Shown here: positions 10,487 to 59,200 of the stretch, in pieces
How positions within the stretch are numbered: the stretch's first letter is position 1
How the letters are laid out: each line of letters starts with the position of its first letter
DNA from: a virus
IMG/VR virus record: IMGVR_UViG_3300027801_002586
Coordinates: 18,070-82,069 of that record
Length of the DNA stretch: 64,000 nt
Direction: 5' to 3' (one strand)
Translations under genes and position numbers: made by a program
Notes under the pieces: model-generated
Seen by the model: the letters and a program-made list of their open reading frames with translations, nothing else
Databases searched by the model: none
Told to the model about the DNA's origin: nothing

Positions 10487-10759
10487 ATGAATAATCAAGA
10501 ATTAGTAGATTTGATAGTAAAGACATTTGATGGTGTAATCATCGATGATTATGGTTGGGAACATTACACTATACCAAATAAGAAATATGATATTCGATTT
10601 GATGCATCTCGAATAGAATGGGCATGTGATTGTCCAGCATTTATGTACCGAAGAAAATTTAAGAAGAAGTATTGTAAACATATTATTGAGATACAGAGTA
10701 AAAAATTAGAACAACGGGTGGCAGATAGCAGAGGCCGTGCTGGTGCCAGAGTGGTCTAA
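10487..10759 (+). CDS. SWIM zinc-finger-like protein, 3' end inside the tRNA
   Basis: 90 residues from ATG 10487, next to the predicted transcription start, so the message has almost no leader. The motif CDC...CKH near residues 46-65 matches the SWIM zinc finger (C-x-C-xn-C-x-H), a DNA/protein-binding module. The last eight codons, including the stop, lie inside the tRNA-Cys gene, so processing of the tRNA would cut this mRNA. Confidence 0.7.
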   Translation: MNNQELVDLIVKTFDGVIIDDYGWEHYTIPNKKYDIRFDASRIEWACDCPAFMYRRKFKKKYCKHIIEIQSKKLEQRVADSRGRAGARVV

Positions 10760-10810
10760 TGGGGTGGATTGCAAATCCATTGTTCGTCGGTTCAAATCCG
10801 ACCCAGCACT
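10737..10810 (+). tRNA. tRNA-Cys (GCA)
   Basis: Acceptor GTGCTGG (10737-10743) pairs perfectly with CCAGCAC (10803-10809). The anticodon loop is TTGCAAA with anticodon GCA, and the T arm is GTCGG-TTCAAAT-CCGAC. The discriminator is T and CCA is not encoded. 74 nt. The 5' end overlaps the SWIM gene. Confidence 0.93.
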
Positions 10811-10833
10811 CAAAATATAAACGGAGATGAAAA

Positions 10834-13486: not shown

Positions 13487-13601
13487 AAAAATAAAATCCA
13501 TTTTGGGTAAACTTCGTAATATGTATTTTATGTACCAATACGGAAAACACTTACAAAAACGAATCGAGAAAAACGATTTCGGAAGGAGACCTGAATATTA
13601 A
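13479..13601 (+). CDS. Small basic helical protein
   Basis: 40 residues from ATG 13479, overlapping the previous gene by eight bases and the next gene by one (TAATG). Amphipathic and basic. The longer frame from 13332 runs inside the previous gene and is not believed. Confidence 0.5.
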   Translation: MIEKIKSILGKLRNMYFMYQYGKHLQKRIEKNDFGRRPEY

Positions 13602-14083
13602 TGCAAACATTTTTACCATATAGTGATTTTGAAAAATCAGCCAAAGTATTAGATTGGCGTAGACTTGGTAAACAACGAGTTGAGGGTATGCAGATTTTAA
13701 ATGCTATCGAACAGAAACCAAGAAAAGATGGGAAACCATATAAGGGGTGGGTTAATCATCCTTGTAGTGTTATGTGGAAAGCATATGTACCAGCATTAAA
13801 ACACTATACTAATATTATTATTACAGAGTGGATTAATCGTGGATACAATAACAATATGAAATTCTATGCTGTTGATGATTTAGTAATACCACATTGGATA
13901 GGTGATGAGCGAATACATTCATCACACAGAGCTAACCTATTAAGAAAAGATTTTGAGTGGTATGGACAGTATGGTTGGGATGAAGGTCTCAAAGATGTAG
14001 AAACTGCACCCTATGTGTGGCATGATATTGAGGGTAAGTTTTATGAACAATTGATAGGAACGGGAGTTAGAAACTATTTATGA
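13601..14083 (+). CDS. MSMEG_6728-like / Pyr_excise family protein
   Basis: 160 residues beginning MQTFLPY, with LGKQRVEGMQIL near residue 24 and a HSSHRANLLRKD segment near residue 107. This pattern is typical of the MSMEG_6728 family related to the T4 pyrimidine-dimer glycosylase DenV (Pyr_excise). A DNA repair role is suggested by the family, not shown. Confidence 0.75.
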   Translation: MQTFLPYSDFEKSAKVLDWRRLGKQRVEGMQILNAIEQKPRKDGKPYKGWVNHPCSVMWKAYVPALKHYTNIIITEWINRGYNNNMKFYAVDDLVIPHWIGDERIHSSHRANLLRKDFEWYGQYGWDEGLKDVETAPYVWHDIEGKFYEQLIGTGVRNYL

Positions 14084-14094
14084 TTTACAAACAA

Positions 14095-14110
14095 GGTTTA
14101 ATAATAAACC
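14095..14110 (+). other. Short hairpin in the leader of the next gene
   Basis: GGTTTA-ATAA-TAAACC forms a perfect 6-bp stem about 25 bp before ATG 14136. No T run follows. Confidence 0.3.
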
Positions 14111-14135
14111 ACTAAACAAACAAGGAGTACAGGTT

Positions 14136-14339
14136 ATGTATTTTGAAACACAAGTAATATTTACAGAAGAAATCCCAACGAAGAATGGAGTACGAGAAAA
14201 GAAAACTCGTAGAGCATTTTTAGTTGAGTGTGATTCTGTATCAGTAGCAGAAGCAAAGGTAAATGAAACATTAAAAGATTCACCATATCCCTTTGAAGTT
14301 AAAGTAGCAAAAGAATCTAAAATTGTAGAGGTAATTTAG
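14136..14339 (+). CDS. DUF4494-like small protein
   Basis: 67 residues. The layout (MYFETQVIF, then SVSVAEAKVNETL) resembles DUF4494 proteins of Bacteroidetes and their phages. Function unknown. AAGGAG upstream. Its stop overlaps the GTG of the next gene. Confidence 0.5.
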   Translation: MYFETQVIFTEEIPTKNGVREKKTRRAFLVECDSVSVAEAKVNETLKDSPYPFEVKVAKESKIVEVI

Positions 14340-14482
14340 TGAAACCAGATAAAGTAGAGATGGTATTTGATATCATAATTACAAGTCTTAAACTTGGAGC
14401 AGGATGTATATTACTATATGTGATGTATCAGTTCACTCAAGGTATGGGAGCATGGGTTGAATTAGATAGGATTACGAGATGA
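14339..14482 (+). CDS. Small membrane protein
   Basis: 47 residues from GTG 14339, overlapping the previous stop. One hydrophobic segment (LGAGCILLYVMY) near residues 19-30. Unknown function. Confidence 0.5.
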   Translation: MKPDKVEMVFDIIITSLKLGAGCILLYVMYQFTQGMGAWVELDRITR

Positions 14483-14515
14483 TGGGTTATTACAAATCTA
14501 ATATAGGAGTTGAAC

Positions 14516-14722
14516 ATGAGTTATAAAGGTTGGGATACTATGTTAGGATTGTTTGGTGCTGGACTTATAATATTGGCAACACTATTATTTTTTGTTCCTT
14601 TTTGGGCATTGTGGAATTGGATAATGCCTGTATTTGGATTACCAACATTGACGATTTTACAGAGTATAGGATTATACTTATTATTGAAACTTGTGATATT
14701 TACACCTACAACAAAGGAGTAA
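14516..14722 (+). CDS. Small two-pass membrane protein
   Basis: 68 residues from ATG 14516, six bases after AGGAG; the TTG at 14510 is less likely. Two hydrophobic segments (residues 9-35 and 43-62). Holin-sized, but the position away from the lysis cluster makes that call weak. Confidence 0.55.
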   Translation: MSYKGWDTMLGLFGAGLIILATLLFFVPFWALWNWIMPVFGLPTLTILQSIGLYLLLKLVIFTPTTKE

Positions 14723-14726
14723 CGAA

Positions 14727-14882
14727 ATGTCACTTGCGGAAATAAAGAAAAAATTAGAAAAAGCCTACAATGAAGAGGATTGGGGTATAGTAGAAGATTT
14801 ATTAGAAACATTATCATATGAAGTTGAAATCGAAGGCGAAGGTTTTTGGGGTGATGACGATGATGATGTGGAAAATGATTAA
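14727..14882 (+). CDS. Small acidic protein
   Basis: 51 residues from ATG 14727 behind AAAGGAG, ending in an Asp-rich tail (GDDDDDVEND). It ends seven bases before the tmRNA. Unknown function. Confidence 0.55.
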   Translation: MSLAEIKKKLEKAYNEEDWGIVEDLLETLSYEVEIEGEGFWGDDDDDVEND

Positions 14883-14889
14883 GTAGTAT

Positions 14890-15230
14890 GGGGCTGCTTG
14901 GTATCGACAGGTGTTATTTGACACTTGGGTGCAACGGAGTTTGAACAAGACTCGCTACAAAAGGTTCACTTTGATTAATTGGCACACAAGCTAATTTAAC
15001 TTACGCTTACGCGTAACATCTTACTTATGACACCGATAGTAAGATAAGATGTCGACATCGGTAGACCACTCTTTTTATAGGTTGGAGTTAAACTTAATCT
15101 TTCAGTTAAGCCATTCTGTGTAAAATGGTGAAGTGGGTTGGAGATAACTACTTATTTGGAATCTCACTAAGTTGTGAATGACCCTTTGGAAAAAGCAGAC
15201 TGGACGCGGGTTCGACTCCCGCCAGCTCCA
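14890..15230 (+). ncRNA. ssrA: tmRNA (transfer-messenger RNA)
   Basis: The 5' end GGGGCTG (14890-14896) pairs with CAGCTCC (15223-15229) with the same G-U as in bacterial tmRNA. The 3' part has the T arm GCGGG-TTCGACT-CCCGC and the 5' part has the tmRNA-like TATCGACAGG and GGTGCAACGGAG. The best tag frame is GGC 14981 to GCG 15013, encoding GTQANLTYAYA, then TAA. An H-type pseudoknot follows: stem 15018-15024/15039-15045 and stem 15032-15037/15057-15062. CCA is not encoded. Length of about 341 nt is normal. tmRNA rescues stalled ribosomes and tags their products. Confidence 0.93.
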
Positions 15231-15264
15231 CAAAACAATAAAAAATGAAAAGGTTATATTTAAA

Positions 15265-15582
15265 ATGGTAGAATATATTTTGTTAGGTATTCTTGCTCCT
15301 GTAGTTCTCAATCTAATGCACTTATTGGTTGGGATATATGTGGTGGTACAAAGAGGTAGTGTAATGTCATTAGGATTTTCTGGCATAAGTTTCTTAACTA
15401 AAACAATCGGAATGATGCTTCTAACTTGGGTAGGGGTAAGTAAATTAAACTTAGACGTTCAGATATTTGTGCCAATGTTGGCATTCTTTTGGTTCTTTAC
15501 TCATATAGTAGAAGCCTTTGTGATACAACATTACATAGATGAAAATCAATCTGAATATATTAAAGGGATACAAATAAAATGA
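15265..15582 (+). CDS. Hypothetical membrane protein
   Basis: 105 residues from ATG 15265; the longer frame from 15178 would run through the tmRNA and is rejected. About three hydrophobic segments with few charged residues. AAAAGG lies upstream. The stop overlaps the next ATG. Unknown function. Confidence 0.6.
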   Translation: MVEYILLGILAPVVLNLMHLLVGIYVVVQRGSVMSLGFSGISFLTKTIGMMLLTWVGVSKLNLDVQIFVPMLAFFWFFTHIVEAFVIQHYIDENQSEYIKGIQIK

Positions 15583-16175
15583 ATTTTAACAAGTTAGCTA
15601 GATATTTATATACGAGTGGAAATGACGATTCATATGAATCAGTAATGAAAAATATAAGAACATATTCAAGTTTGGCTTTTATAGCCTTAGTGATATTTAA
15701 TGGTTTCGTATGGACAACGATTTTTGATAATTACAAGAGTTTTCATCAAGAAACTTTGGTGAACTTGAAAGAGGATAATCAGAAACTAAACAATTTAGTT
15801 TCGGAACATAACCTTGAGGGGATGGATGTGGTAGTAACGATGTATCATCCAGTTTCGTATCAAACAGACTCCACACCGAACATTCTCGCGGATGGAACGC
15901 GAATACGGGTACACAAAGCTAGTGAGTACCGATACATAGCGGTTAGTAGGAATCTTTTGAAACGCTGGGGTGGTTGGTTAGATTACGGCGACTTTATTCT
16001 CTTAAAGGGAACTGACGGTAAAGATGGTATGTACCAAGTAAAAGATACAATGAACGCAAGATTTGTAAATCGTATAGACATCTTGGAATCACCAGGTACA
16101 AAACCATACAAGTTCGATATTGCTCAAATATCAAGAGTGCCAGATGATACTTTTGTGTCATACAACAATAAATAA
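15579..16175 (+). CDS. Membrane-anchored 3D-domain (double-psi beta-barrel) protein
   Basis: 198 residues. One transmembrane segment (LAFIALVIFNGFVWTTIF) near residues 32-49, a short coiled coil, then a C-terminal domain (about 85-195) with TDSTPNILADGT, SRNLLKRWGGWLDYGD and VKDTMNARFVNR. These match the 3D domain of MltA/RlpA-like lytic transglycosylases, including its Asp residues. It should sit in the periplasm facing peptidoglycan and may help lysis or entry. Catalytic activity is not assured. Confidence 0.65.
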   Translation: MNFNKLARYLYTSGNDDSYESVMKNIRTYSSLAFIALVIFNGFVWTTIFDNYKSFHQETLVNLKEDNQKLNNLVSEHNLEGMDVVVTMYHPVSYQTDSTPNILADGTRIRVHKASEYRYIAVSRNLLKRWGGWLDYGDFILLKGTDGKDGMYQVKDTMNARFVNRIDILESPGTKPYKFDIAQISRVPDDTFVSYNNK

Positions 16176-16201
16176 AAAATAAAAAATACAACAGGTAATA
16201 A

Positions 16202-17821
16202 ATGAAAAAATGGTTTTATGAGAGAAGTAAGTTCTCTGAGTTTAAATCAAATACGACTTATCATAAGTTGTTAGAGATGTCAGTAGAGGATTTCAATGAG
16301 TGGGCACGATTGCTAAGACAAGAAGTAACTACTCAATGGGATGAGTATGGAACACCACCTGTAATCGGTAGAGATGAAGATGGTATTATTCAAAAATTCA
16401 AAAAATTAAAAGACAATCCTTGTAATTATTTAATTGAAGATAATACTGGTGATGATGAATCACTTGGTATAATTAAAAACTTCAATAAAGATGCAAGTAG
16501 TGTTAATCAATTCTTCCCAACAATGTTAAAAACAAAAATCAGTATTGGTGCATCAGCCGATAATGGATTATCTATATACGACCACTTTGGTGACCCAGAG
16601 TTAGAAGATAAGTTTGTTCACATTATGCGTAGAGCAGTAAAGAAAGATTCTATGTATAGTTGGAGTAGAAGTATTGTAACCAAGAAAGATGAGAATCCAT
16701 TTTGGAATGGACAGACTGGTAAAGAGTTTATTAGAGATGTACACGAGGGTAAAGTGTTTACTGGTAAATACAAAGATACAGGTATTGTACTTGCAAGAGT
16801 AAAAGAAAATACTGTCGGTAATTATGGTACAATGAATGAAGAGTTTAAAGGACATGGAAATGTTTATTTAACTGCAGAGGAAGTACAAGAGTGTAAAGAT
16901 AGTGGTTACTTGAATGATACACAATTAAGTAACATACCAGATATAGTTTCAAGCGAAACGAGTAAGACTGGTAATGTAACTAAGTTCTTATATTTGATTA
17001 GACATTATGACAAAACTATCGGAATCTTTCCAAAGATATTACAAGTGTTTAGATTAGCGTGTGGACAACCTGCAGTAAACTTTCCACCATTAACTGCTAA
17101 ACTTTTGTATGAAAAATTTACAAATCATATAGAAAATCAAGAACAAAAATTTCATATCTATGACCCATCCGCAGGTTGGGGTGGTAGAATATTAGGAGCA
17201 ATGAGTTCTCGTAAGAATATTCATTATGTAGGTACAGACCCTAACCCAGATAACTTAGGTAGATATCAAGCAGTTGCTGATTTCTATAATAGTAATTGTG
17301 TTGATGATTTTTCTGATAACTTCAATAAGTTTTTTGATGTAGAGAAACAATCAAACACGTATGAAGTATTTAGTGATGGGAGTGAATTAATATCTAACAA
17401 TCCAGCATTTCAAAAATATAAAGGTAAGTTGGATGTAGTATTTACTTCGCCACCATACTTTAATCGTGAACAATATTCCCAAGATGAGAATCAGTCGTTC
17501 AAAGCCTATAGTGAGTATCAAGACTGGAGAGATAACTTCTTAGAACCCACTTTACGAACTGCGTATGAGTATCTCAAACGAGATAGATATATCCTTTGGA
17601 ACATCGCTAGTATAAAGATAGGAGCAAATACCTACTATGATTTAGAGGGTGATAGTAGAAAAATATTAGAAGAGCTTGGTTGTGAGTATAAAGGAAAGCT
17701 AAAAATGTTAATGACAAGGATGATTGGCTTAGACCCAAGTAAGACTGGAATATTAAATTCAGTACAATATGATAATAATGTTTATAAATTTGAACCTATA
17801 TTTGTGTACTATAAAAGATGA
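16202..17821 (+). CDS. DNA methylase-like protein (SPPY motif) with large N-terminal extension
   Basis: 539 residues. SAM-binding motif I is DPSAGWGGR from Asp321; VFTSPPYF (SPPY at 416-419) is the N6-adenine/N4-cytosine motif IV. About 310 residues precede the methylase core and are not recognised; they may recognise DNA or substrate. It overlaps the next gene by four bases (ATGA), and so heads a translationally coupled block with a TS-like enzyme, an AsnB-type enzyme and a PLP enzyme. It could protect DNA from restriction or act within base hypermodification. Confidence 0.75.
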   Translation: MKKWFYERSKFSEFKSNTTYHKLLEMSVEDFNEWARLLRQEVTTQWDEYGTPPVIGRDEDGIIQKFKKLKDNPCNYLIEDNTGDDESLGIIKNFNKDASSVNQFFPTMLKTKISIGASADNGLSIYDHFGDPELEDKFVHIMRRAVKKDSMYSWSRSIVTKKDENPFWNGQTGKEFIRDVHEGKVFTGKYKDTGIVLARVKENTVGNYGTMNEEFKGHGNVYLTAEEVQECKDSGYLNDTQLSNIPDIVSSETSKTGNVTKFLYLIRHYDKTIGIFPKILQVFRLACGQPAVNFPPLTAKLLYEKFTNHIENQEQKFHIYDPSAGWGGRILGAMSSRKNIHYVGTDPNPDNLGRYQAVADFYNSNCVDDFSDNFNKFFDVEKQSNTYEVFSDGSELISNNPAFQKYKGKLDVVFTSPPYFNREQYSQDENQSFKAYSEYQDWRDNFLEPTLRTAYEYLKRDRYILWNIASIKIGANTYYDLEGDSRKILEELGCEYKGKLKMLMTRMIGLDPSKTGILNSVQYDNNVYKFEPIFVYYKR

Positions 17822-18504
17822 TAATAATTAAAGCAAACTCACCAACAGATGCTTGGATACAATCACACGAGTATCTTTTAGCAAATGGTAACAAAGATGT
17901 GATGAATGAAAGTATTAATATGTCGGTAGAGATAGAAGATAACTTCGATGTCGATATAAAATTTGATGGAGTATTCAGAGAAATCTTTGGTGATGATAGA
18001 ATAGATTATGCAAGTTCAGTTACATTTGTTAAACCAACAGAACATCCGTTTATGGATGAGTTACAATACAAACAGAATGATATCAAAGTAAAGTGGAATA
18101 AAACTTATTGGGGTAGAATGATTAATTGGGATAATAGTTTTAATCAAATAGAACAAGTTATTAAAAGATTAAAAGAACATAAGAATAGTAAAACAATTGC
18201 AATGAGTATCTATGACCCAAAATCAGATGGTAGAAAAACTATGAGTGGAATGCCATGTTTATTATCGATAGATTTAAAACCACGAAAAGATGGATTGTAT
18301 TTAACAGCATTCTTTCGTAGTATGAGAATTAGTAAAAGTGGTTATGCTGATTGGATGGCGTTGTGTGAATTAGGTAAGTTCTTATGTGAACAAGCAAATT
18401 TAAAATTAAAACGAGTTACCACAATTGGCGGTTCGGTACATATTGGGGATATGAATAACGAAAAGAAAAATGTGAGGGAGTTGCTTAGTGTGTGGAATAG
18501 TTAG
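17818..18504 (+). CDS. Thymidylate-synthase-like enzyme with dCMP-type Asp (candidate dCMP hydroxymethylase/methylase)
   Basis: 228 residues, shorter than ThyA and closest in outline to archaeal-type TS. The catalytic Cys is Cys147 in MPC; aligned without gaps to E. coli TS (Cys146), Arg and Ser fall at +20/+21 (Arg167, Ser168) as in TS. At +31, where TS has Asn177, there is Asp178. In T4 dCMP hydroxymethylase that position is also Asp and selects dCMP over dUMP. GGSVHIGD near 203 matches the C-terminal His region. The TS Asp169 equivalent is not conserved. So it likely makes a C5-modified dCMP, or a related product. Start overlaps the methylase stop and its end overlaps the AsnB start. Confidence 0.7.
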   Translation: MIIIKANSPTDAWIQSHEYLLANGNKDVMNESINMSVEIEDNFDVDIKFDGVFREIFGDDRIDYASSVTFVKPTEHPFMDELQYKQNDIKVKWNKTYWGRMINWDNSFNQIEQVIKRLKEHKNSKTIAMSIYDPKSDGRKTMSGMPCLLSIDLKPRKDGLYLTAFFRSMRISKSGYADWMALCELGKFLCEQANLKLKRVTTIGGSVHIGDMNNEKKNVRELLSVWNS

Positions 18505-19993
18505 TACTATTGGTTATACAGAAGATGATGTAGAGGTGATGTTACAGGAGATTGAACATCGAGGTAGAGACAACAGAGAAATTTATCAGAGTGGTAATGT
18601 TATACTTGGACATAATCGTTTAAGTATTAATGATGTTAGTTCAGATGGGAATCAACCATTCGTATGGAATGATTATGCACTTGTAGTTAATGGTGAGATA
18701 TGGAACTATCCACAATTAAGAAAAGAATATGAAGAACGAGGTTATAGATTTTTTAGTAATAGTGATTCGGAAATAATTTTATATTTGTATAAGGAGAATG
18801 AGTTACCAAGATTAGATGGTATGTTTAGTTTTGCACTACACGATACAATGACTAATCAATTAATTCTATCGAGAGATTGGGTTGGTAAGATACCATTATA
18901 TATTTACAATAATGATACGAATATTATAGTAGCATCTGAAATGAAATCCATACTAAAAATATTACCACAAGCAGAATGTAAGTTTGTACCAAAAAATTCG
19001 GTGGTTACAATAGGAACTGAAACTGGAACAATACATATTGAGAAAGATTATTATTTTAGTTTTTCGAAATATGAAGTAAAAGAATTTGACCAAGATGAAG
19101 TGAATAAAAAAACATATGAGTTATTGGATAACGCTATTGAAAAAAGATTATTAAGTGATGTTAAGGTTGCAACTTGTTTGAGTGGTGGAATTGATTCAAG
19201 TGTGATTACTTATTTGTTAAGTAAGAAAGTACCTGATATAGTATCTTATACAGTCAAGTTCGATGAAGATTCAAGAGATTTAATGTTTGCAAGAATGGTT
19301 GCAAAACATATTGATGTACCATTGGTTGAGGTTGAGATACCAAGAGACCCAGAAGAAATAAAAAGAAAATTTTTAGAAACAATTAGGGTTATAGAATATC
19401 CATCAACAGTCCAAATGGAAGTTGGTATTTTACAAAGTTATGTTGCAGAACAAATGGCAAAGGATGGGGTTAAGGTTGCGTTTAGTGGTGAAGGTTCTGA
19501 TGAGGCGTATGGTTCATATGGTATGGTAAGAATGTTCAGTAAGAAACCTGACTGGAGTGATGTAAGAAAAAAGATGTTTGAAAAACAATACTATGGTAAT
19601 TTACTTCGTGGTAATAATATTTTTATGAACTATGGAACAATCGAATTAAGATGTCCATTCTTCGATTTGGATTTTTTAAATTACACCACAAACTTGAATC
19701 AGCCAGTATTGGATAATGGTGGTAACCAATGGAAGAAACCACTTGCTGAAGCATTTCGTGGCCACTTACCAGATGAAGTATGTGACCAAGAGAAAAGAGC
19801 ATTTCAAAAGGGAACAAACTTTAAAGACTATATAGAAGATTTAATTCTTAATGATAGAGATTTAAATTTTAGAAATAGAAAAAAACTATTTCATTGTATA
19901 GGAGATAACTTTGAAAAAATATTTGGTTTCAAACATAAAGGTATGAGAGATACTTTGAGTGGAACTGAAAGTGGATTTAATAAATGGGCATGA
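18488..19993 (+). CDS. AsnB-type glutamine-dependent amidotransferase/asparagine synthetase
   Basis: 501 residues from GTG 18488, a start fixed by the required N-terminal MCGIVS with Cys2 as the glutaminase nucleophile. The class II GATase domain spans about 1-190; the synthetase domain has the PP-loop SGGIDSS (232-238) and SGEGSDEAYGSYG near 335-347. Family members activate a carboxylate with ATP and transfer ammonia from glutamine. Its overlap with TS-like and PLP enzymes suggests amidation of a small-molecule or base adduct rather than simple asparagine synthesis. Confidence 0.88.
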   Translation: MCGIVSTIGYTEDDVEVMLQEIEHRGRDNREIYQSGNVILGHNRLSINDVSSDGNQPFVWNDYALVVNGEIWNYPQLRKEYEERGYRFFSNSDSEIILYLYKENELPRLDGMFSFALHDTMTNQLILSRDWVGKIPLYIYNNDTNIIVASEMKSILKILPQAECKFVPKNSVVTIGTETGTIHIEKDYYFSFSKYEVKEFDQDEVNKKTYELLDNAIEKRLLSDVKVATCLSGGIDSSVITYLLSKKVPDIVSYTVKFDEDSRDLMFARMVAKHIDVPLVEVEIPRDPEEIKRKFLETIRVIEYPSTVQMEVGILQSYVAEQMAKDGVKVAFSGEGSDEAYGSYGMVRMFSKKPDWSDVRKKMFEKQYYGNLLRGNNIFMNYGTIELRCPFFDLDFLNYTTNLNQPVLDNGGNQWKKPLAEAFRGHLPDEVCDQEKRAFQKGTNFKDYIEDLILNDRDLNFRNRKKLFHCIGDNFEKIFGFKHKGMRDTLSGTESGFNKWA

Positions 19994-20829
19994 TAGAAAC
20001 ACCAATAGAAACCTATAAACTAAGTGGTATTGATGTAGATGTTAAACGAGATGATTTAGTTGGTGATGGTATTAATTATCCACGATGGGCAAAGATAGAT
20101 GGTATCCGAAGAATATTAGAGAGTGCTGATATAGATAAAACAAAACCACTAACACATTTATCAGTATATGGAAGTTGGACAGGTTGGGTACTGAGTGGTT
20201 TATGTAAAGAATATGGAATAGAATTTATTTCTGCTTATCCAGATACCCAAAGGTTTCCACAAATATTATTAGAAAGAGTTGTGGGTAATGGGGGAACTCT
20301 ACATCCTATGAGACCCAACATGATGGCGTTTATGCAAAATAAATTAAACACCCAAGCAAAAGAAAATGGTTGGCAACAATTACCATACGCGTTTAATCAT
20401 CCAGCATATATTAATTACATGGGTGAGAGAATGAAACAAGTTTTAGAAGAAAATGAATATGATAATCTTATAGTTAGTATCGGAAGTGGTGTTACTGCAA
20501 GTGGATTAATAAAAGAGTTTTTAGAATACAATGATGATTGGTGGAAATTATCTGCCAAATCAAAAAAAGTTTATTCAATCACGATGAGTGCATTCTCATC
20601 AACAAAAAAGATTTTAAATGAGAATCACGCAGGTGATTTAAAAAACATACTACTCGAAAAATCACCATATGCATTTGATGATATGATGGATGACTATAAA
20701 GTACCATTTGATTGTAACGAATTTTGGGACAAGAAACAATGGTATTGGTTAGAGAATAATATACAGAACTTAAAAGGTAAAACCTTATTTTGGAATATCG
20801 GCGGTTCTTATTTAAATTCAATAAAATGA
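19990..20829 (+). CDS. PLP-dependent enzyme, fold type II (ACC deaminase/D-cysteine desulfhydrase-like)
   Basis: 279 residues from ATG 19990, whose ATGA overlaps the AsnB stop (ATG 19984 is also possible). The early KRDDLVG and the candidate Schiff-base Lys35 in WAKIDG align with the KRDDL...GNK segment of ACC-deaminase-like enzymes. GSGVTASG (165-172) is the phosphate-binding loop. It could act on an amino acid to supply or trim a side group. Last gene of the overlapping block; the substrate is unknown. Confidence 0.75.
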   Translation: MIETPIETYKLSGIDVDVKRDDLVGDGINYPRWAKIDGIRRILESADIDKTKPLTHLSVYGSWTGWVLSGLCKEYGIEFISAYPDTQRFPQILLERVVGNGGTLHPMRPNMMAFMQNKLNTQAKENGWQQLPYAFNHPAYINYMGERMKQVLEENEYDNLIVSIGSGVTASGLIKEFLEYNDDWWKLSAKSKKVYSITMSAFSSTKKILNENHAGDLKNILLEKSPYAFDDMMDDYKVPFDCNEFWDKKQWYWLENNIQNLKGKTLFWNIGGSYLNSIK

Positions 20830-20838
20830 AAAAAACAC

Positions 20839-20868
20839 TTGACTTGTATGGGCAAAAAGCCTTATATT
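20839..20868 (+). promoter_or_regulatory. Sigma70-like promoter with palindromic spacer, copy 7
   Basis: TTGACT (20839-20844), 18-nt spacer containing GGGC-AAAAA-GCCT, TATATT (20863-20868), preceded by an A tract. It starts the HD/gp55-like/GH6 operon. Confidence 0.85.
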
Positions 20869-20901
20869 AAGTCATACTAAAATTGGAGATATATAAATAA
20901 T

Positions 20902-21675
20902 ATGAAGAGTTTAACAGCAGAAAAAATACAAGAGAATTACAACTCACTGCGAAATATTATCACTATGAATTTCTCGGGTGAACGACTTGAGAAATTAAAT
21001 AAGATGTATGATTATTTCGAGGATAGGATGATGTTAGCACCAGCAAGTGCAAAGGAACATTATCACAATGCTATGGTGGGTGGATATGTAGAACACGTAT
21101 TACACATTGTAGATTTTTCACAATCAGTAAAAAAGTTGTGGGAAGAAAAGGGAGCAGAAATTGATTTTACAGATGAAGAATTAATCTTTGCTGCATTACA
21201 TCACGACTTAGGTAAAGTAGGTAATTTAGATTATGATTACTATATACCAAATGAATCAGATTGGCATAGGAAGAATCAAGGTAAGATTTATACACACAAC
21301 CCTGAATTACCTTATATGACAGTAACGGATAGAGCATTTTATTTACTTCAACATTTTCAAATACCTTTAACAGAAAACGAATATATGGGTTTAATGTTAA
21401 CAGATGGGATGTATGAAGATGCAAATAAAAAATACTTAATGACGTTCTTACCAGAGACTGGATTACGAAGTCATATATCACGAATATTACACCAAGCAGA
21501 TATGATGGCAACATTTATAGAATCTGATGAATGGAAGCGTGGAGATAAAAAAGAAACTAAACGAGTTGCTAAATCAGTTGGTAACATCAAAAATGCAGTT
21601 GCAACAGAAGTTGATACTAAACTCAAAGGTGAAAATGCTAAAGAGTTATTTAACGAGTTGTTTGGAGATAAATAA
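20902..21675 (+). CDS. HD-domain phosphohydrolase
   Basis: 257 residues. Metal ligands of the HD fold are visible: His residues near 53-65 (HYHNAMVGGYVEHV), the doublet His101-Asp102 in AALHHDLGK, and a distal HQADMMA near 203. Such enzymes cleave nucleotides or signalling phosphates. It starts the operon that includes the gp55-like sigma factor. Substrate unknown. Confidence 0.85.
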   Translation: MKSLTAEKIQENYNSLRNIITMNFSGERLEKLNKMYDYFEDRMMLAPASAKEHYHNAMVGGYVEHVLHIVDFSQSVKKLWEEKGAEIDFTDEELIFAALHHDLGKVGNLDYDYYIPNESDWHRKNQGKIYTHNPELPYMTVTDRAFYLLQHFQIPLTENEYMGLMLTDGMYEDANKKYLMTFLPETGLRSHISRILHQADMMATFIESDEWKRGDKKETKRVAKSVGNIKNAVATEVDTKLKGENAKELFNELFGDK

Positions 21676-21935
21676 TGGTAGTAGAAATATTGCTTGGGGT
21701 ATTTGTAATAGTTTGTATAGCCCTAAGTTGGACAACATATAATCAAATACAAAAAGTAGAAAGGTTAGAAGATTGGGTTGAGAACTTCTCGGCACAAATT
21801 ATTTTAACACAACGAACACTTGCAGAATTAGATTCTGAGGGTAAGTTTGAATCCGATGATGATATCGGAACAGTCTTTACAGCAATTAAAGATACGGTCA
21901 ATGATTTAAATAAATTAACAATAGAGGATATATAA
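21675..21935 (+). CDS. Membrane-anchored small protein
   Basis: 86 residues. One N-terminal transmembrane segment (VEILLGVFVIVCIALSW) followed by a helical acidic domain. TAATG overlap with the HD gene. Unknown function. Confidence 0.6.
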   Translation: MVVEILLGVFVIVCIALSWTTYNQIQKVERLEDWVENFSAQIILTQRTLAELDSEGKFESDDDIGTVFTAIKDTVNDLNKLTIEDI

Positions 21936-22658
21936 ATGCCACCAAAAGCAAAAAAGACATCACCACGATATTACTTTCATCAAGGAACTGAAGATGCAAT
22001 CGTCAGATTGAATAAAGAAACTCGTGCTCATATGAAACAACGAATTTACAATGAACATATTCGCACACCATTTGAGAAACTTGCTGAGAATATAATTCAT
22101 ACATTTAAATTTTATTACTTTGATGTTCCATCGGATGATGTGAAACACGAAGTGGTATCATTCTTATATATGAACATCCACAAATTTGCTGAAGGTAAGG
22201 GAAAAGCTTTTTCATACTTTAGTATTGTTGCTAAGAATTATTTAATTTTACATAACAACAATAACTACAAGAAGATGAAACAACATGATTCTGAAGATGT
22301 AATGGATTATAAAAGAGACCCTGTCGGAGAACTTCGAGGTAAGGAATCTAAATCTATGGCAATGGAATATATAGAACAACTTGCGGATTATTGGAGAAAT
22401 AATTTAACAACAGTCTTTAAACGAAAGAAAGATTTGGATGTTGCTAATTCTGTAGTGGAGTTAATTGATATGAGACATAATATTGATAACTTTAATAAGA
22501 AAGCATTATACATTCTTATTCGTGAGATGACGGGTTCTAATACACAACACATTACTCGTGTAATTAATGTGATGAAGAAACATCATAATAATCTACACAA
22601 GGCTTATGTAGCTACTGGTTCAGTTGATACTAAACGAACTGGTAGTTGGTTTGAGTGA
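21936..22658 (+). CDS. gp55-like late transcription sigma factor
   Basis: 240 residues. The central segment DDVKHEVVSFLYMNIHKF and GKAFSYFSIVAKNYLI resembles sigma70 region 2 and T4 gp55 homologues of marine phages, which recognise the late promoter -10 element and work with the sliding clamp. A basic C-terminal part follows. Candidate targets are the ATATTTAT elements upstream of the structural operons. It is transcribed from a sigma70-like promoter, as expected of a middle gene. The GTGA overlap couples it to the GH6 gene. Confidence 0.7.
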   Translation: MPPKAKKTSPRYYFHQGTEDAIVRLNKETRAHMKQRIYNEHIRTPFEKLAENIIHTFKFYYFDVPSDDVKHEVVSFLYMNIHKFAEGKGKAFSYFSIVAKNYLILHNNNNYKKMKQHDSEDVMDYKRDPVGELRGKESKSMAMEYIEQLADYWRNNLTTVFKRKKDLDVANSVVELIDMRHNIDNFNKKALYILIREMTGSNTQHITRVINVMKKHHNNLHKAYVATGSVDTKRTGSWFE

Positions 22659-23467
22659 AACTCTATAAACAAGATTGGGATTATCGGAAAATAAATACCG
22701 ATGAATATCCACAATTAAAAGCGATTACATCACAACCAAATTCTTTTTGGATAATAAGTAATCCTAAAAAACCACTCAAACGAGTTACAACAAGAATACG
22801 AAGATTATGTAGAAGAGCACATCCATACCAACCTATTATAGTTTTATATGCTATACCTGGTAGAGATGTAGGTGGACATTCAAAGGGTGGGTTATCTGAT
22901 AAACAATATATAAAATATATTGGAGATATTGCAAAAGGTATTGGTTCATATAAACCAATAGTAATATTCGAACCTGATGCTATTCCACATATGAGAAGGA
23001 TGAATTTCTTTCAACGAACAAGTCGAACAAGGTTAATCAGAAAATCTTTAAAACTCTTATCACAATGTAGTGCACAAATTTATCTTGATATAGGACATCC
23101 CAATTGGTTAAAGGTTGGAGATGCGTCTACTTATTTAAATCTTTTTAATGATAATAAGATAAAAGGCTTTTCAGTTAATGTAAGTAACTTTGTTACTACG
23201 GATAAATGTATTCGATGGGGTGATAAAGTTTCCGATAGAACCGATTTAAATTATATTATAGATACATCAAGGAATGGTACTGAAGTATGGGAAACCTTTA
23301 ATCCAGAAGAAATGAAACTTGGAGAAAAACCAACAATCAGAACTTCATCAAGAAGTTGTGATGCTTATCTTTGGATTAAAACACCAGGTGAAAGTGATGG
23401 TGCCGTAAATGGTTGGCCTAAAGCTGGTAGATTTGATGCTGAAAAAACCTTATCTCTTATAAACTAA
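22655..23467 (+). CDS. Glycoside hydrolase family 6 (GH6)-like protein
   Basis: 270 residues from GTG 22655. GH6 landmarks in order: YAIPGRD with Asp71, IFEPDAIP with Asp108 (general acid), YLDIGHPNW near 143, IIDTSRNG near 201, and YLWIKTPGESDG with Asp248 (base region). GH6 enzymes cleave beta-1,4-glucans by inversion. No signal peptide, so it acts either in the cell or carried on the virion. Very unusual for a phage and shorter than typical GH6 catalytic domains. Confidence 0.85.
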   Translation: MKLYKQDWDYRKINTDEYPQLKAITSQPNSFWIISNPKKPLKRVTTRIRRLCRRAHPYQPIIVLYAIPGRDVGGHSKGGLSDKQYIKYIGDIAKGIGSYKPIVIFEPDAIPHMRRMNFFQRTSRTRLIRKSLKLLSQCSAQIYLDIGHPNWLKVGDASTYLNLFNDNKIKGFSVNVSNFVTTDKCIRWGDKVSDRTDLNYIIDTSRNGTEVWETFNPEEMKLGEKPTIRTSSRSCDAYLWIKTPGESDGAVNGWPKAGRFDAEKTLSLIN

Positions 23468-53295: not shown

Positions 53296-56200
53296 ATGGC
53301 AATCTTAAAGAGAATCAACAAATATCAAGGTTTAAAGGATATAGATATACTTGTCGAAGAGACTGGGTTAACTTCCCAATACTTTCAAGTTTACGATTTT
53401 CCAAACCAAATACCACAAGGTAAATCATCATTCTTAGTTGCAGGTTCACCTTTCTTAGCAGACAATGTAGAACTTAAAGTTGAAATATTAGATGCGGGTG
53501 GGAACACTGTCTATACTGAAGCAATAACAAATTATCTTGAGGGTGGTGCACGCCGTGTATCAATAGAGGTATATGATGATGTTATACCTGGTGATGGTTT
53601 TATGTATATTGTTGGGGAACTTAAAACTAACTATCAACAGATATCAGGTTTAGAAAACAACAATGATGAAATAACTGATTCTCAGATAACCGACCCTAAA
53701 AGTTTTGGAAACATTAATCCAGCTAATTTATCCGAAGAATTTATAGACCAACTTACTGCACAAAATGCTCAAGATGTTCCAACAGAATTTCAAGGTGTTT
53801 ATAATGTACGATATGTAAGACCAATTTTTATTAATGCGGCATTACCTAATTCACAACCAATTTTCTTTTATCAACAACCAAGAGTAACTGTCACAGAAGT
53901 TGTTAAACCTTTTATAGAACAATTAGCACCAAGTGGTTCAGTTGTATTGAGTGGTAGTATTGAAGCAAATCCTGCTCCAGATTTAACACCACTACCAGCA
54001 CCAATTGCTCCACCACCAGGATTTCCAAAGAATCCAACAGCAGAGGGATTGGGTCAGATTGGACAAATAAATGAAATATTTAAATCAAGTAAAAAATCAA
54101 AATCAAATCCATTTAGAAATTCTGGGTTTAGGTCAAGGGGGAGATTAGTAAGAAGGTCATCACCTGAACAAGATAGATTCTCAATGAGAGTACACCAACT
54201 TGAAGAATCAAATGAAACCACAAAGGATAAGGCATCGAGTGCATTAATTGGTGCAACTCTAACTATTAAATCACCAAAAATTGATTTAGTTAAATATCCA
54301 GCAGAAGAGTTTGATGTACCTACTTCATTCCATACAAGTATTAAAAAAGTTTTAAATGAAGAAACGATTGTACCAGTAGATGATTTCTTTATTACAAGAA
54401 AAGATACATTAGAAAAAATACCAGTTCCAATTATAGCAGACGAGGTTGCTGGGAATGGACAATCTGAAGTTACAATGTCTTATACACCTTTTCCTGAACA
54501 ATCACTTAGTGCAACACATAATCGTTCTTTTGCTGATGTAACAGTCGCAAACCTACGAACATTTAGTGGGGATGTTTACAAGACAAAAATTTATGGAAAG
54601 AGTCAAGGTTCACTTGGAGATTTTGAATTACTACATGAGGGTACAATCGAATCCCCACAAACTTTAATAGACCCATATAGTGTAGATGGATTTTTAAATA
54701 TAGGTTATTTTCATACTCAAAGTATTGTTGATAATTATTGGTTGTTAAATGGTGGTACTGCTGCAAGAAATGATAGTAAGATTTTAGATGGTATTGAGAT
54801 TAGTGGTTCAAACTATGCAGTAGGTTCATCAGTTGAACTTACAACATCGGGTAGTTTTGCATTAGAAAAGGGTGTACCTTATTCAATTACTTTTAATGCA
54901 CATTATTTCAAGGAAGATAAAGTACAAGATAACGATGATGTAGAAAAAGATTTTGAGTTAGATGTATTGGTATCGGAAGCAGCATTAATAGGTGGTACTT
55001 TATCCGATACATATCAATCAGTAGGTAAAGTAGATATAGGGAATAATAACTTAAATGAGGGTTCAATACCAGGTATTTATACTACGTTCATAACGCCGAG
55101 TGATATTGGTCCAACTCTTAAATTAAAATTTAAATTAAATGCTGGTAGGGCAATTATAAATGATGTAGTTGTACGACCACACGCAGAAACAAACTTTAAT
55201 CCAGATTACTTTAGGGTAGTACTTCCGATGGCATATCCATTACCCAAACAACCAGATTTATATGATTTCTTAGTAGAGTTTTATGATGTAAATAATAATA
55301 TTGCAGAAACATTCACGATAGGTCAAAACATAGAATTTACAGGTGCACCATTAAATATCGATGGTGAGGATAACTTACTTAGTGGTTCATTATACATTGG
55401 TTCTACACAAGGTAGTGGTTTTGAGATGGCAGGAGTATCTTCTGCATTCTTACGGTCTATTGGATATAATGGGTTTGACAGAACAATTGCAGAAAGTAAG
55501 GGTGGATTTTTATTGTGGAGTGGTTCTATCGGGGATAGATTAACTGCAAGTGAAGATTATGATGGAGTTGGGTTAGAGATAGTAGATGCTCATACTTCAC
55601 AAGATAGATATTTAAAATTTAGAACAAACCCAAGCACATTTGAAGTTGTTACCGACCAGTTCTTCTTAGGACAAGCTGGTAGTTCTTTTGTAAGTGGTTC
55701 AAATGGTAACATCGAAATATTCTCATCAGGTACTACAACATTAAGTGGTAGTAATGTAGATATTTTAACACCTAATTTTTTCTTAGGTGGTTCGAGTGCA
55801 TTTGTAAGTGGTAGTGGTGGTAATATAGAAATAAGTTCAAGTAATTTCCATGTCACTCCAGAGGGTAATGTTACAATGAGTGGTGATATTACTGCAAACG
55901 CTGGTTTCATCGGTGATTGGGCAATTGTAGATGGTCAGATAAGTGGTAGTAACATTACATTAAATGCTGATAATTCTACAATATTTAAAACAGACCAAGG
56001 GCCTGGCAGTGATTCATCAGCAGCATTTGATGCATTAAGAGATGAGTATTATATAGATTTTACACCGACCGAAGAATCTCCAAATAACTATTATATTAAA
56101 ATGGGCCCAAGTTTTATGGTGGATAAGGATGGTATCTTAATCGCAAGTGGTGCAACATTTGAGGGAAGTATTACTGCATCAGAAGGTTTAATTGGTGGGT

Positions 56201-59200
56201 TCACTACAGATAGTCATTCATTCCATAGTAACAATATTTTCATAAGTGGTTCACCCGCAATTGGTGGAGTTGACCATCCACGATATATGTTTATCTCATC
56301 TTCAAATTTCAATGTAAAAGAAAATGGGGATATAACTGGTTCAAGTGCTTTATTTGATGGTAACACAAGTATATCAGGAACTACTACTATTGGTGGAAAT
56401 TTAACTGTCAATGGTACAGGTACGATTGCATCATTTGGTTTAACAGAAACTGCAATATCAAGTTCTAACGATAAATTAATATTGAAATCAAGTGGAGAAA
56501 TAACTTCATCTGCTGCTAGGATTGTTGGTAGTGATGTAGATATAGATGTTGAGAAATTCGAATTAGATGCTAATAATTTAGAAATATCTTCTACACATTC
56601 ATCTATGAGTTTAGGTGAGGGTAAGATAGATTTAGTTGGTGGTTCTACTTCATTTATACAAGTTGGTTCTGCAAATGCAATAACATTGAAAGATGATGGA
56701 ACTGATAGGTTTTTGGTTATTGGAAGTAAAACATCTTTCTCACATTTCAACCAATCTACCGCAGGAGTAATTTTAGGTACAGATGGTGGAACTACAAAAT
56801 TTGAAGTAGTTGGAGATGCATCTAATTACATTTCTTTTAACGGAACAGCATTTGATATCAAATCAGAAGAATTTGGATTAAAGACTTCAACACTACACAT
56901 ATCATCATCTAATGGTGGTGTGATTGCTATGGGTTCTACAATACCACAAAAAGTAGAACAGGCTGGAATATTTTTAAGTGGTAGTGGACAATTTAGTTTC
57001 TACTCATCATCACGAGGACATATAGTATTCGATGGTACAGATTTTAAAATTGCCTCAAAGAATTTAACAATAGATACATCAACACTTGATATTAATACTG
57101 CGGGTGGTGGTAACATTGCACTTGGTAGTGGAACACCATCATTAAGTGCTGCAGGTATTTTCCTAAGTGGTAGTGGAGATTTTAATTTCCAAAAAGATGG
57201 AAATAACTTTATAAGACAGAGTGGTGGAGCATTCCAAATAAAAGCAGATACTTTTGATTTAGATGCTACAACACTCATTATGGATAGTGCTGGTGATAGT
57301 GGAAATGGAATAATTAGATTGGGTGCAAGTGGAGGCCCATCTAGTCCAACAAATGGTACTGCTGGTATTTATATGGATGGGGGTGGAGCACTTAATGTTG
57401 TAGGAAATGCTACAAACTTCTTTAGGGTAGATGGTGGTTCATTTACGATTAAATCCGATACATTTGATTTACAAACCACAACCTTTTCTGCATCATCTGC
57501 AGGTACTGGTAAGATTTCACTTGGACAAACACCACCTACAAGATACGATAGTGGAAATGGTATATTCTTTGATGGAGATGCTAACTTCCTAATCGGTAGT
57601 GCAAGTGGAGATAAGATACAATTTACCAATGGTGATTTTACAGTCCAAGTTGGTTCATTAGAATTGGATGCAAGTAATATAGAGATTAGTTCAACGAACG
57701 CTTCTATGTCATTGGGTGAGGGTAATATTATACTTGATGGTGCTAACAATAAAATTAAAGTTGGTAAAACTACTAATAAATTAATTGAGATTGTAGGTTC
57801 ATCTACACAAGGATACATTGCAACAGGTAAAGATTCCGCTACATCTACAACCGCAGGATTTTGGTTAGCAAACAATAACACAGACCCAGAATTTGCAGTT
57901 GGAGATTCTACAGATTTTATTAGATTTAATGGTGGTAACTTAGATATTAATTCTCAAAAACTTGAGATTGCAGCATCCACATTACAATTATCCACAACCG
58001 AAGCAAGTATGAGTCTTGGACATAATGCACAAAGTGGTTCTTATGGTAGAGTTATATTAGAGGGTGCAGGAGTACCAACATTAAGAATTGGAAAACAAGC
58101 ACACACCATTACACTTGCAACTGGTAGTGGTATTTATATGGATGGTGATGGTAACTTTAGATTTGGTGATGATGATGGTGGTATAAAATTTAATAATGGT
58201 AATTTCTCAATTACTGGTTCTGATGTAGATATTGATGTAACAGATATTAATATTACTTCGACTGGATTTAGATTATCATCCACAAATGCTTCGATGTCGT
58301 TAGGTACAAACGACCAATTATTAGTACACGCCAATAGTTCAAGTCCATTTTTAAGTATTGGACAATCTACAAAGGGTTACGGACAAACAGGAATATTTCT
58401 TGGGTATATAAATTCAGTATCAAGACCACGAGTTTCGTTTGTTGGTTCAACGGGTCATTTTAAAGTTGACCAAGATGTTGATATAAAAACAGAAACATTT
58501 GAAATGGATGCGAATAGTGGTGATTTACAAATATCAAGTGCTCATAAATCAATGTCATTGGGAGACCAATCTATTGTACTTGATGGGCCAAACAAAAAAA
58601 TAACAGTCGGTACGGGTAATCAGATTAGTATCGTGGGTGGAGCATCAGATAACTTTATTACTATGGGTAGTAAAACGGGTATGGATAGTACTCAAGGTAG
58701 TGGAACTGCAGGTATCATTATTGGGATGGATGGAAGTAATCCACAAGCTGAATTTGTAAAAAGTGCAACCGAATATTTTATATACGATAATGGTATAGAT
58801 ATGAAAACACTTAACTTTGAGTTAGATGCGGGTACAGGAGATTTACAAATATCATCAGCACAAAAATCAATGAGTTTGGGTGATGGTAATGTAATATTAG
58901 ATGGATTAGAAAAAGCAATTATACTTAATTCAGGTAGTAATTCGATTACTTTACAAACTAATGCTACTGATTCATTTATGGTAATGGGTAGTAAGACAAG
59001 TTTTACAGAAGAGGGTAGTGGAACTGCTGGAATATTAATTGGAATGGATGGAAGTAATCCACAAGCTGAATTTGTTAAGAGTGCTACTGATTACTTTATA
59101 TTTGATGATGGTTTAGATATAAAAACTACTAAACTTGAATTGGATGCTGGTTCATTACAATTATCTAATACACATAATTCTATGAGTTTAAGCCCTGATA

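Follow-up and report, generated by a model that had tools for sequence, protein, structure and literature searches.

A four-gene overlapping phage cassette with a likely role in DNA-base hypermodification

We identified a cassette of four overlapping genes, at positions 16202-20829 of a 64,000-nucleotide stretch of viral DNA, that likely serves the hypermodification of DNA bases. The stretch, called the window below, runs from base 18070 to the end, at base 82069, of a viral record (IMG/VR record IMGVR_UViG_3300027801_002586), and we take its source to be a tailed phage because it encodes baseplate-wedge, DNA-primase and SbcC-like genes. The cassette encodes an SPPY-type DNA methyltransferase homologue (MT), a thymidylate synthase homologue (TS), a glutamine-dependent AsnB homologue (AsnB) and a fold-type II pyridoxal phosphate (PLP) enzyme. 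With a probability of roughly 60%, we read these genes as a co-translated phage cassette for the hypermodification of cytosine in DNA, a third modular route to cytosine decorated with an amino acid or amide. That they form a DNA-modification pathway of some kind is highly probable; the class of function is likely, and the base and product are ones that we infer. The support for DNA-base hypermodification comes from the homology of the PLP enzyme to that of the phage M6 cassette and of AsnB to the CmoY-type DNA amide ligases. In it, a TS that is probably of the cytosine type is combined with a ligase resembling CmoY and with a PLP enzyme of M6 type, which brings relatives of two proven systems together. 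A preliminary description, made from the letters of the window, had proposed base hypermodification by these four genes; the two homologies uphold the class of pathway, while the further chemistry is something that we only infer. DNA hypermodification protects phages from restriction and supplies enzymes for DNA labelling. In a limited literature search, no paper was recognised as describing TS, AsnB and the PLP enzyme together.

All four genes lie on the plus strand, in the order MT-TS-AsnB-PLP. The MT gene (16202..17821) encodes 539 amino acids, with motif I DPSAGWGGR, motif IV TSPPYF and an N-terminal region of about 270 amino acids without assigned function. It shares a 4-base ATGA overlap with the TS gene (17818..18504), whose 228-amino-acid product is a TS-fold enzyme with catalytic Cys147 and with Asp178 where the E. 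coli enzyme has Asn177, and is predicted to modify C5 of dCMP. The AsnB gene (18488..19993) overlaps the TS gene by 17 bases, and its GTG start yields Met-Cys-Gly-Ile; the 501-amino-acid product, a putative glutamine-hydrolysing amide ligase, combines a class II glutaminase with an ATP-pyrophosphatase and resembles glutaminase-bearing CmoY. The PLP gene (19984..20829) encodes a 281-amino-acid homologue of M6 gp52 with a predicted PLP lysine, Lys37. With translation from its second ATG, at 19990, the 10-base overlap with AsnB would shrink to ATGA. The overlap sizes differ among loci, and in the related locus L027 the TS and AsnB genes are separated by one base. The overlapping block named in the preliminary description is confirmed by the coordinates of the open reading frames, and its four family calls agree with matches above cut-off to PF01555 for MT (29 bits; cut-off 26.7), PF00303 for TS (34.4 bits; cut-off 24.3) and PF00733 and GATase_7 for AsnB (144.7 and 117 bits, both far above cut-off). 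For the PLP enzyme the family call rests on PHROG 7093 (E 1.4e-22), named threonine dehydratase, a label that the M6 cassette gene also bears.

Relatives of the cassette proteins, at 39-98% identity, occur in many viral contigs. Four tests in IMG/VR were anchored on the PLP enzyme, AsnB, TS and MT respectively, with genes labelled by profiles built for this analysis. Duplicated proteins were removed before counting, as were loci with short flanks (less than 3.5 kb on either side in the PLP-anchored test), which left 32 of 67 distinct proteins for the PLP enzyme, 34 of 53 for AsnB, 34 of 50 for TS, and 19 of 77 for MT, for which the best 80 matches were taken. The loci come from related phages, so the counts are not independent, and the scans use short peptide patterns that favour close relatives (the TS-anchored scan missed the loci L195 and L196). 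Among the 32 full-flank PLP loci, AsnB was present within 8 kb in 25 and an AsnB-type ATPase without the glutaminase in 3. TS occurred in 20 of them, all of which had AsnB or the ATPase (20/20), and the other 12 carried a D-2-hydroxyacid dehydrogenase; no locus had both TS and the dehydrogenase, and none had neither. TS and the PLP enzyme were both found in 31 of the 34 full-flank AsnB loci, and within the reach of the patterns every full-flank TS locus (34/34) had the PLP enzyme together with AsnB (30) or the ATPase (4). The grouping is more than chance, because relatives are found in many viral contigs and the exact order TS-AsnB-PLP is kept in 41 of the 53 distinct AsnB loci. Contigs that carry the cassette fall into three groups whose surrounding genes differ: window-like phages; larger phages (L027, L037) with genes that by eye appear to encode ribonucleotide reductase; and L055/L056, where it adjoins what by eye appears to be a clamp-loader gene.

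Three slots of the cassette have alternatives (AsnB or ATPase, PLP enzyme or radical S-adenosylmethionine (SAM) enzyme, TS or hydroxyacid dehydrogenase), which is the pattern expected of a combinatorial chemistry. In L026, L029 and L033 a 308-amino-acid stand-alone ATPase occupies the AsnB slot with the small overlaps kept. A radical SAM gene follows AsnB directly in L195, and after one small gene in L196; no PLP gene was detected in either locus. The AsnB of L018 shares 98% identity with that of the window, and between it and the PLP gene sits a radical SAM gene (L018:2447-3868) belonging to one family with that of L195 (40% identical). By eye, the first 15 codons of this gene resemble the N-terminus of the PLP enzyme, as though the gene had entered this place recently. 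The D-2-hydroxyacid dehydrogenase of the sister loci (L112, L121, L127 and others) is PF02826 in the two members scanned and had no match among phage records.

The divergence of the cassette proteins is uneven. In L053 and L054, TS is 85-86% identical to that of the window, AsnB 58-60% and the PLP enzyme 48-50%. Over 27 gene sets, which are not independent, the distance correlations were r 0.93 for AsnB-PLP, 0.76 for TS-AsnB and 0.62 for TS-PLP. From these identity and distance patterns, AsnB and the PLP enzyme would seem to share a side chain as their substrate, with TS acting on the base. One locus, L187, has TS and AsnB as a single 710-codon frame (L187:4353-6485) in which the N-terminal Cys of AsnB is lost; this may be a fusion, a deletion or an assembly error, and we gave it no weight.

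The PLP enzyme provides the link to known thymidine hypermodification. Searched with tblastn, it matched 62 of 50,697 phage records (52 Pseudomonas, 8 Bordetella, 1 Sphaerotilus and 1 Stenotrophomonas phages), including M6, YuA and SN1, with 27.1% identity to the M6 protein (E 1e-18) and 28.5% to that of YuA over 95% of its length. Four of the 62 neighbourhoods were inspected, one for each of the host groups (M6, Bordetella MW2, Stenotrophomonas Bhz59 and SN1, all phages of the Rabinowitzvirinae), and all four had the M6-type gene order, in which a TS homologue accompanies the PLP gene, a "photolyase"/radical SAM gene and a "terminase"/kinase gene. In M6 itself, the cassette neighbours score as amino acid:DNA transferase (ADDT), radical SAM, 5-hydroxymethyldeoxyuridine kinase, the helical domain of that kinase, and Nmad5. 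The SN1 paper names genes of this set a thymidine-modification cassette (PMC9476957). Lys37, in the region (K/R)RDDL...K, is common to 60 of 60 PLP proteins aligned at full length, M6 gp52 among them, and is the predicted Schiff-base lysine. Against the PDB, the PLP profile gave only weak matches, the best being an aspartate racemase (E 0.0017). In 84,980 bacterial and archaeal genomes, a scan with two narrow patterns yielded 28 pattern matches and no relative, which is weak evidence of absence.

Among 48 AsnB relatives, 47 have all five motif patterns of the glutaminase and the SGGxDS/PP-loop complete. AsnB matched 17 phage records, the best being Streptomyces phage TurkishDelight gp124 (32.5% identity, E 2e-67; pairwise 33%, E 5e-79), which sits between a CmoX-like C5-methyltransferase gene with an SPPC motif and a CmoA-like gene. 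The relative in phage Motura lies within a 7-deazaguanine cluster. The stand-alone ATPase matched Staphylococcus phage F1 (E 4e-13) and three further phage records, S-B43, S-B05 and RB11-B (E 1e-5). In S-B43 and F1 the matching genes adjoin CmoA-like and annotated C5-methyltransferase genes; the CmoY gene of S-B43 was recognised by its neighbours and not by accession. Used as a query in the reverse direction, the F1 relative matched the window and the collected loci at 67 places. According to excerpts of the report on this system, CmoY of S-B43 attaches glycine to the 5-carboxymethylcytosine of DNA; homologues in a second CmoY cluster carry a glutaminase domain, and for these the use of ammonia was suggested, but they were not obtained in soluble form (PMC12783734). 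The cassette AsnBs have a glutaminase-bearing architecture of this kind, and they are seen here in a fixed genetic context that makes their substrate testable. In TurkishDelight, gp123-125 (L138) place the C5-methyltransferase, the glutaminase-type CmoY-like protein and the CmoA-like protein in a row, together with two genes annotated as ParB-like, of which the one scanned had nothing in Pfam. We regard TurkishDelight as a candidate for an amide-type 5-carboxymethylcytosine (5cxmC).

Cys147 and Asp178 of TS are both kept in 28 of 28 distinct relatives, none of which has the dUMP-type Asn at the position equivalent to 177. In a MAFFT alignment Asp178 falls on the Asp of T4 gp42, at a position where M6 gp58 and one phage ThyA have Asn. 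Excerpts of two papers describe T4 Asp179 as a key determinant for dCMP versus dUMP (PMC6400193) and report that TS proteins from cytosine-modified contigs in MetaGPA mostly have Asp177 (PMC8670742). Against the PDB, the nearest sequence match of the TS profile was MilA of mildiomycin biosynthesis (E 7.7e-8). A predicted model of moderate confidence (mean predicted local distance difference test score (pLDDT) 71) was compared with Foldseek candidates and resembled AfhB (Z 17.1 and 16.5), MilA (15.7) and ordinary TS (15.3 and below), these differences in Z being small; the top AfhB row had a root-mean-square deviation of 3.7 over 193 aligned residues, at 18% identity. Because one invariant residue, the Asp, and the structural neighbours point the same way, cytosine is probably the target base, an assignment that goes beyond the preliminary description. 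Two TS-bearing records have a separate thymidylate synthase (ThyA in G003, ThyX in G021), so that TS is not the only possible source of dTMP there. No phage record matched TS by tblastn at E 1e-5.

If the cassette is a cytosine-hypermodification pathway, its steps might run as follows, an order that in its specifics is doubtful. By its family and its Asp, TS would put a one-carbon or oxygen handle on C5 of dCMP, either a hydroxymethyl group, as T4 gp42 and MilA do, or possibly a hydroxyl group, as AfhB does, and the modified dCMP would then be incorporated into DNA. With the catalytic Glu of the folate enzymes not evident in TS, the handle could be either of the two. By homology to M6 gp52, the PLP enzyme would build or trim an alpha-amino-acid side chain on the base. 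AsnB, by homology to CmoY, would adenylate the side-chain carboxylate and amidate it with ammonia from glutamine; in the sister phages, where the ATPase without a glutaminase fills this slot, an amino acid would be joined instead.

Two systems are the closest comparisons, and both were searched for in cassette records that are fragments or of unstated completeness. M6 and its relatives are reported to make 5-(2-aminoethyl)-dU. The cassette shares with M6 a homologous PLP enzyme and a TS homologue, HD-type genes lie near both, and the related loci L018, L195 and L196 carry a radical SAM gene in or by the operon. It differs in having an Asp for Asn in TS, in adding AsnB and the SPPY MT, and in the genes not found: ADDT (PF18724), whose profile matched the M6 control at E 2.3e-48, in 0 of 19 cassette records and, in a search without control, in 0 of 12, the kinase HMUDK (PF18748) in 0 of 19, and HMUDK_hel (PF18723) in 0 of 12, the M6 control being positive for the last two. 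The radical SAM gene of L018 was also considered as a homologue of M6 gp53 and rejected, as there was no significant BLAST match. With the CmoA-CmoX-CmoY system of Synechococcus phage S-B43 the cassette shares an AsnB-type ATP-dependent amide ligase, occurring in both systems as glutaminase-bearing and stand-alone forms in the excerpted account (PMC12783734), and it differs in having TS, the PLP enzyme and MT. CmoA (TIGR00740) was found in 0 of 21 records at E 1e-3, with a model against which three phage CmoA-like proteins scored E 2.6e-25 to 9e-49, all below the curated cut-off; nor did a CmoA query in tblastn, or two CmoX-type queries at E 1e-3, match the window or the loci searched with it. 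Since these searches turned up neither the kinase and transferase of M6 nor CmoA or CmoX, we rejected membership in both the DNA-kinase/ADDT and the carboxy-SAM systems.

Two single enzymes may also be compared with TS. The dCMP hydroxymethylase of T4 shares the TS fold, the catalytic Cys and the predicted cytosine-selecting Asp; it differs in length (246 amino acids in gp42, 228 in TS), in its catalytic Glu60, to which nothing in TS clearly corresponds, and in its neighbours, gp42 adjoining a beta-glucosyltransferase and TS being followed by AsnB and the PLP enzyme. AfhB, the flavin-dependent dCMP hydroxylase of phage HY126 (PDB 9iqu, 9iqc), gives the best structural row for the TS model and has Asp in the equivalent column. 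Its likeness to TS, at 18% identity, is one of predicted structure. A limited literature search found no paper on AfhB.

SPPY is an ordinary motif of N4-cytosine methylases, and the G-W-G and TSPPYF residues of MT are invariant in 12 of 12 aligned sequences. MT matched 24 phage records, all partially; phmmer and profile searches of the PDB gave nothing useful, and the Foldseek top rows of its AlphaFold model (pLDDT 74) were SAM methyltransferases of generic kind with poor TM scores. MT is probably a sequence-targeted DNA alkyltransferase of the same island, as predicted from its motifs; we do not assign the transferred group. It lies within 8 kb of the PLP gene in 31 of 32 full-flank PLP loci and is present in 29 of 34 full-flank TS loci. 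In the test anchored on MT itself, among the best 80 matches, the PLP enzyme was present in 10 of 19 full-flank loci (6 of them with a distant subfamily) and AsnB in 4 of 19, which makes MT a looser partner from a broader family than the other three. The co-occurrence in related phages that the preliminary description put forward as a check thus holds for TS, AsnB and the PLP enzyme and in part for MT. The distant PLP subfamily comprises 22 loci of the MT-anchored set, all 22 with a lysine after RDDL/REDL by pattern, and in L264, L276, L304 and L328 it lies near SPPY MT genes without TS and AsnB.

These pairings of MT with PLP enzymes bring up a different chemistry, in which the amino-acid or carboxylate handle would come from MT and not from TS: an exocyclic base nitrogen receives a 3-amino-3-carboxypropyl (or carboxymethyl) group that MT takes from SAM, the PLP enzyme and AsnB process that group, and TS acts separately on the same or another base. 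CmoX and CmoY offer a precedent for a SAM-derived carboxylate followed by an amide in the excerpts of PMC12783734, and SAM could be fed and recycled by genes of the window's own record. Outside the window, at L061:2642-10273, this record has carbamoyltransferase, IMP dehydrogenase, adenine phosphoribosyltransferase, sugar dehydrogenase, MetK-like and methylthioadenosine/S-adenosylhomocysteine nucleosidase-like genes close together, a possible phage set for SAM supply and recycling in which the MetK-like and nucleosidase-like calls are below NCBIfam cut-offs. We nevertheless think this chemistry unlikely, given the ordinary methylase motif, the unspecific fold search, the lack of CmoA in 21 records and the linkage among TS, AsnB and the PLP enzyme, which is tighter than their linkage to MT. 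The same gene context also speaks for the favoured cytosine reading. MetK occurs in 6 of 14 cassette records, and a 5-hydroxymethylcytosine carbamoyltransferase from a TS-bearing contig was active in vitro, according to excerpts of PMC8670742. The carbamoyltransferase and MetK context fits a C5-hydroxymethyl handle and a high demand for SAM and proves neither.

A bolder version of the favoured reading would make the cassette a third chemistry for amino-acid-decorated DNA, combinatorial in kind, that works without a base kinase, an amino-acid:DNA transferase or carboxy-SAM. The PLP enzyme (or radical SAM enzyme) would build the alpha-amino-acid side chain directly on C5-activated cytosine, and AsnB and the ATPase, as interchangeable ligases, would close off the carboxylate of that chain by adding ammonia or an amino acid. 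Taken furthest, this version has the SPPY MT itself deliver the aminocarboxypropyl arm of SAM. We consider this rather unlikely.

Several observations weigh against the favoured reading. The sister group without TS has the 2-hydroxyacid dehydrogenase instead (12 of 32 loci), which the model leaves unexplained, and MT is also found without the TS-AsnB-PLP trio. The catalytic Glu, described in excerpts of PMC6400193 as conserved across thymidylate synthases and CMP and dCMP hydroxymethylases, has no clear counterpart in TS in the MAFFT alignment, where the N-terminal half is poorly aligned (pLDDT is below 50 at 62-73, 81-108 and 127-146 of the model). In Pfam the PLP enzyme gave a weak match to PF00291 (E 0.041), below the cut-off that M6 gp52 exceeds. 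The ATPase matched S-B43 CmoY weakly, at E 1e-5 and over 47% of its own length, and S-B43 CmoY, used in turn as a query, matched neither the window nor the loci searched with it at E 1e-3. Carbamoyltransferase is present in only 4 of 17 cassette records. Of the three AsnB-matching neighbourhoods inspected out of 17, two were DNA-modification clusters and one, in S-SCSM1, lay among glycosyltransferases. Finally, AsnB scores 295 bits against the asparagine synthetase family TIGR01536, above its cut-off of 267, which leaves room for plain asparagine synthesis.

The last of these observations, together with the threonine dehydratase label of PHROG 7093, would be accounted for by an auxiliary metabolism in which AsnB really makes asparagine and the PLP enzyme dehydrates an amino acid, both lying beside a nucleotide-synthesis TS through an accident of how the operon is built. 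In E. coli AsnB the TTIRAS stretch contains Arg325, which we take to be important for aspartate. The Arg is absent from the stretch matching TTIRAS/TTVRAS in 48 of 48 cassette AsnBs, which reads STVQMEV or WTQVSPA or close variants; it lies opposite Gln309 in the human alignment and Glu311 in the E. coli alignment, the two differing by two residues. A glutaminase-less ATPase in the AsnB slot also does not fit asparagine synthesis, the dehydratase label is shared by the M6 cassette gene, and the separate ThyA and ThyX speak against a nucleotide-synthesis TS in two records. We consider auxiliary metabolism very unlikely.

The match of TS to MilA and the glycosyltransferase cluster in one of three AsnB neighbourhoods could instead mean that the target is not DNA, and that the enzymes act on free nucleotides, a nucleoside antibiotic-like compound or RNA. 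This seems improbable to us in view of the M6-type cassettes in all four PLP neighbourhoods inspected, the CmoA and C5-methyltransferase genes adjoining the relatives of the ATPase and the best relatives of AsnB, the amino-type DNA methylase linked to the cassette, and the lack of a PLP relative in the bacterial and archaeal scan with its two narrow patterns.

Downstream of the cassette, on the plus strand, lies a possible accessory gene (20902..21675) for an HD-domain phosphohydrolase-like protein (PHROG 28876, E 3.3e-12; PHROG 5889, E 1.9e-13). An HD-type gene lies within 8 kb of the PLP gene in 7 of 32 full-flank PLP loci, and near MT without TS or AsnB in 5 of 19 full-flank loci among the best 80 MT matches. 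Further along the window, the gene at 22655-23467 encodes a member of glycosyl hydrolase family 6 (PF01341, E 1.3e-40), which we find unusual in a phage and which adjoins the cassette in window-like relatives as well. A megablast search of window positions 14000-23000 against phages gave no match. Upstream, the window has a tRNA-Cys gene at 10737-10811, a pyrimidine-dimer DNA glycosylase domain (PF03013, E 1.1e-22) at 13601-14083 and a tmRNA gene at 14890-15233 (Rfam RF00023, 84.4 bits; tag peptide GTQANLTYAYA by ARAGORN). At the far end of the window, from 53296 to 64000, lies an open frame that continues past the window end and counts at least 3,568 codons.

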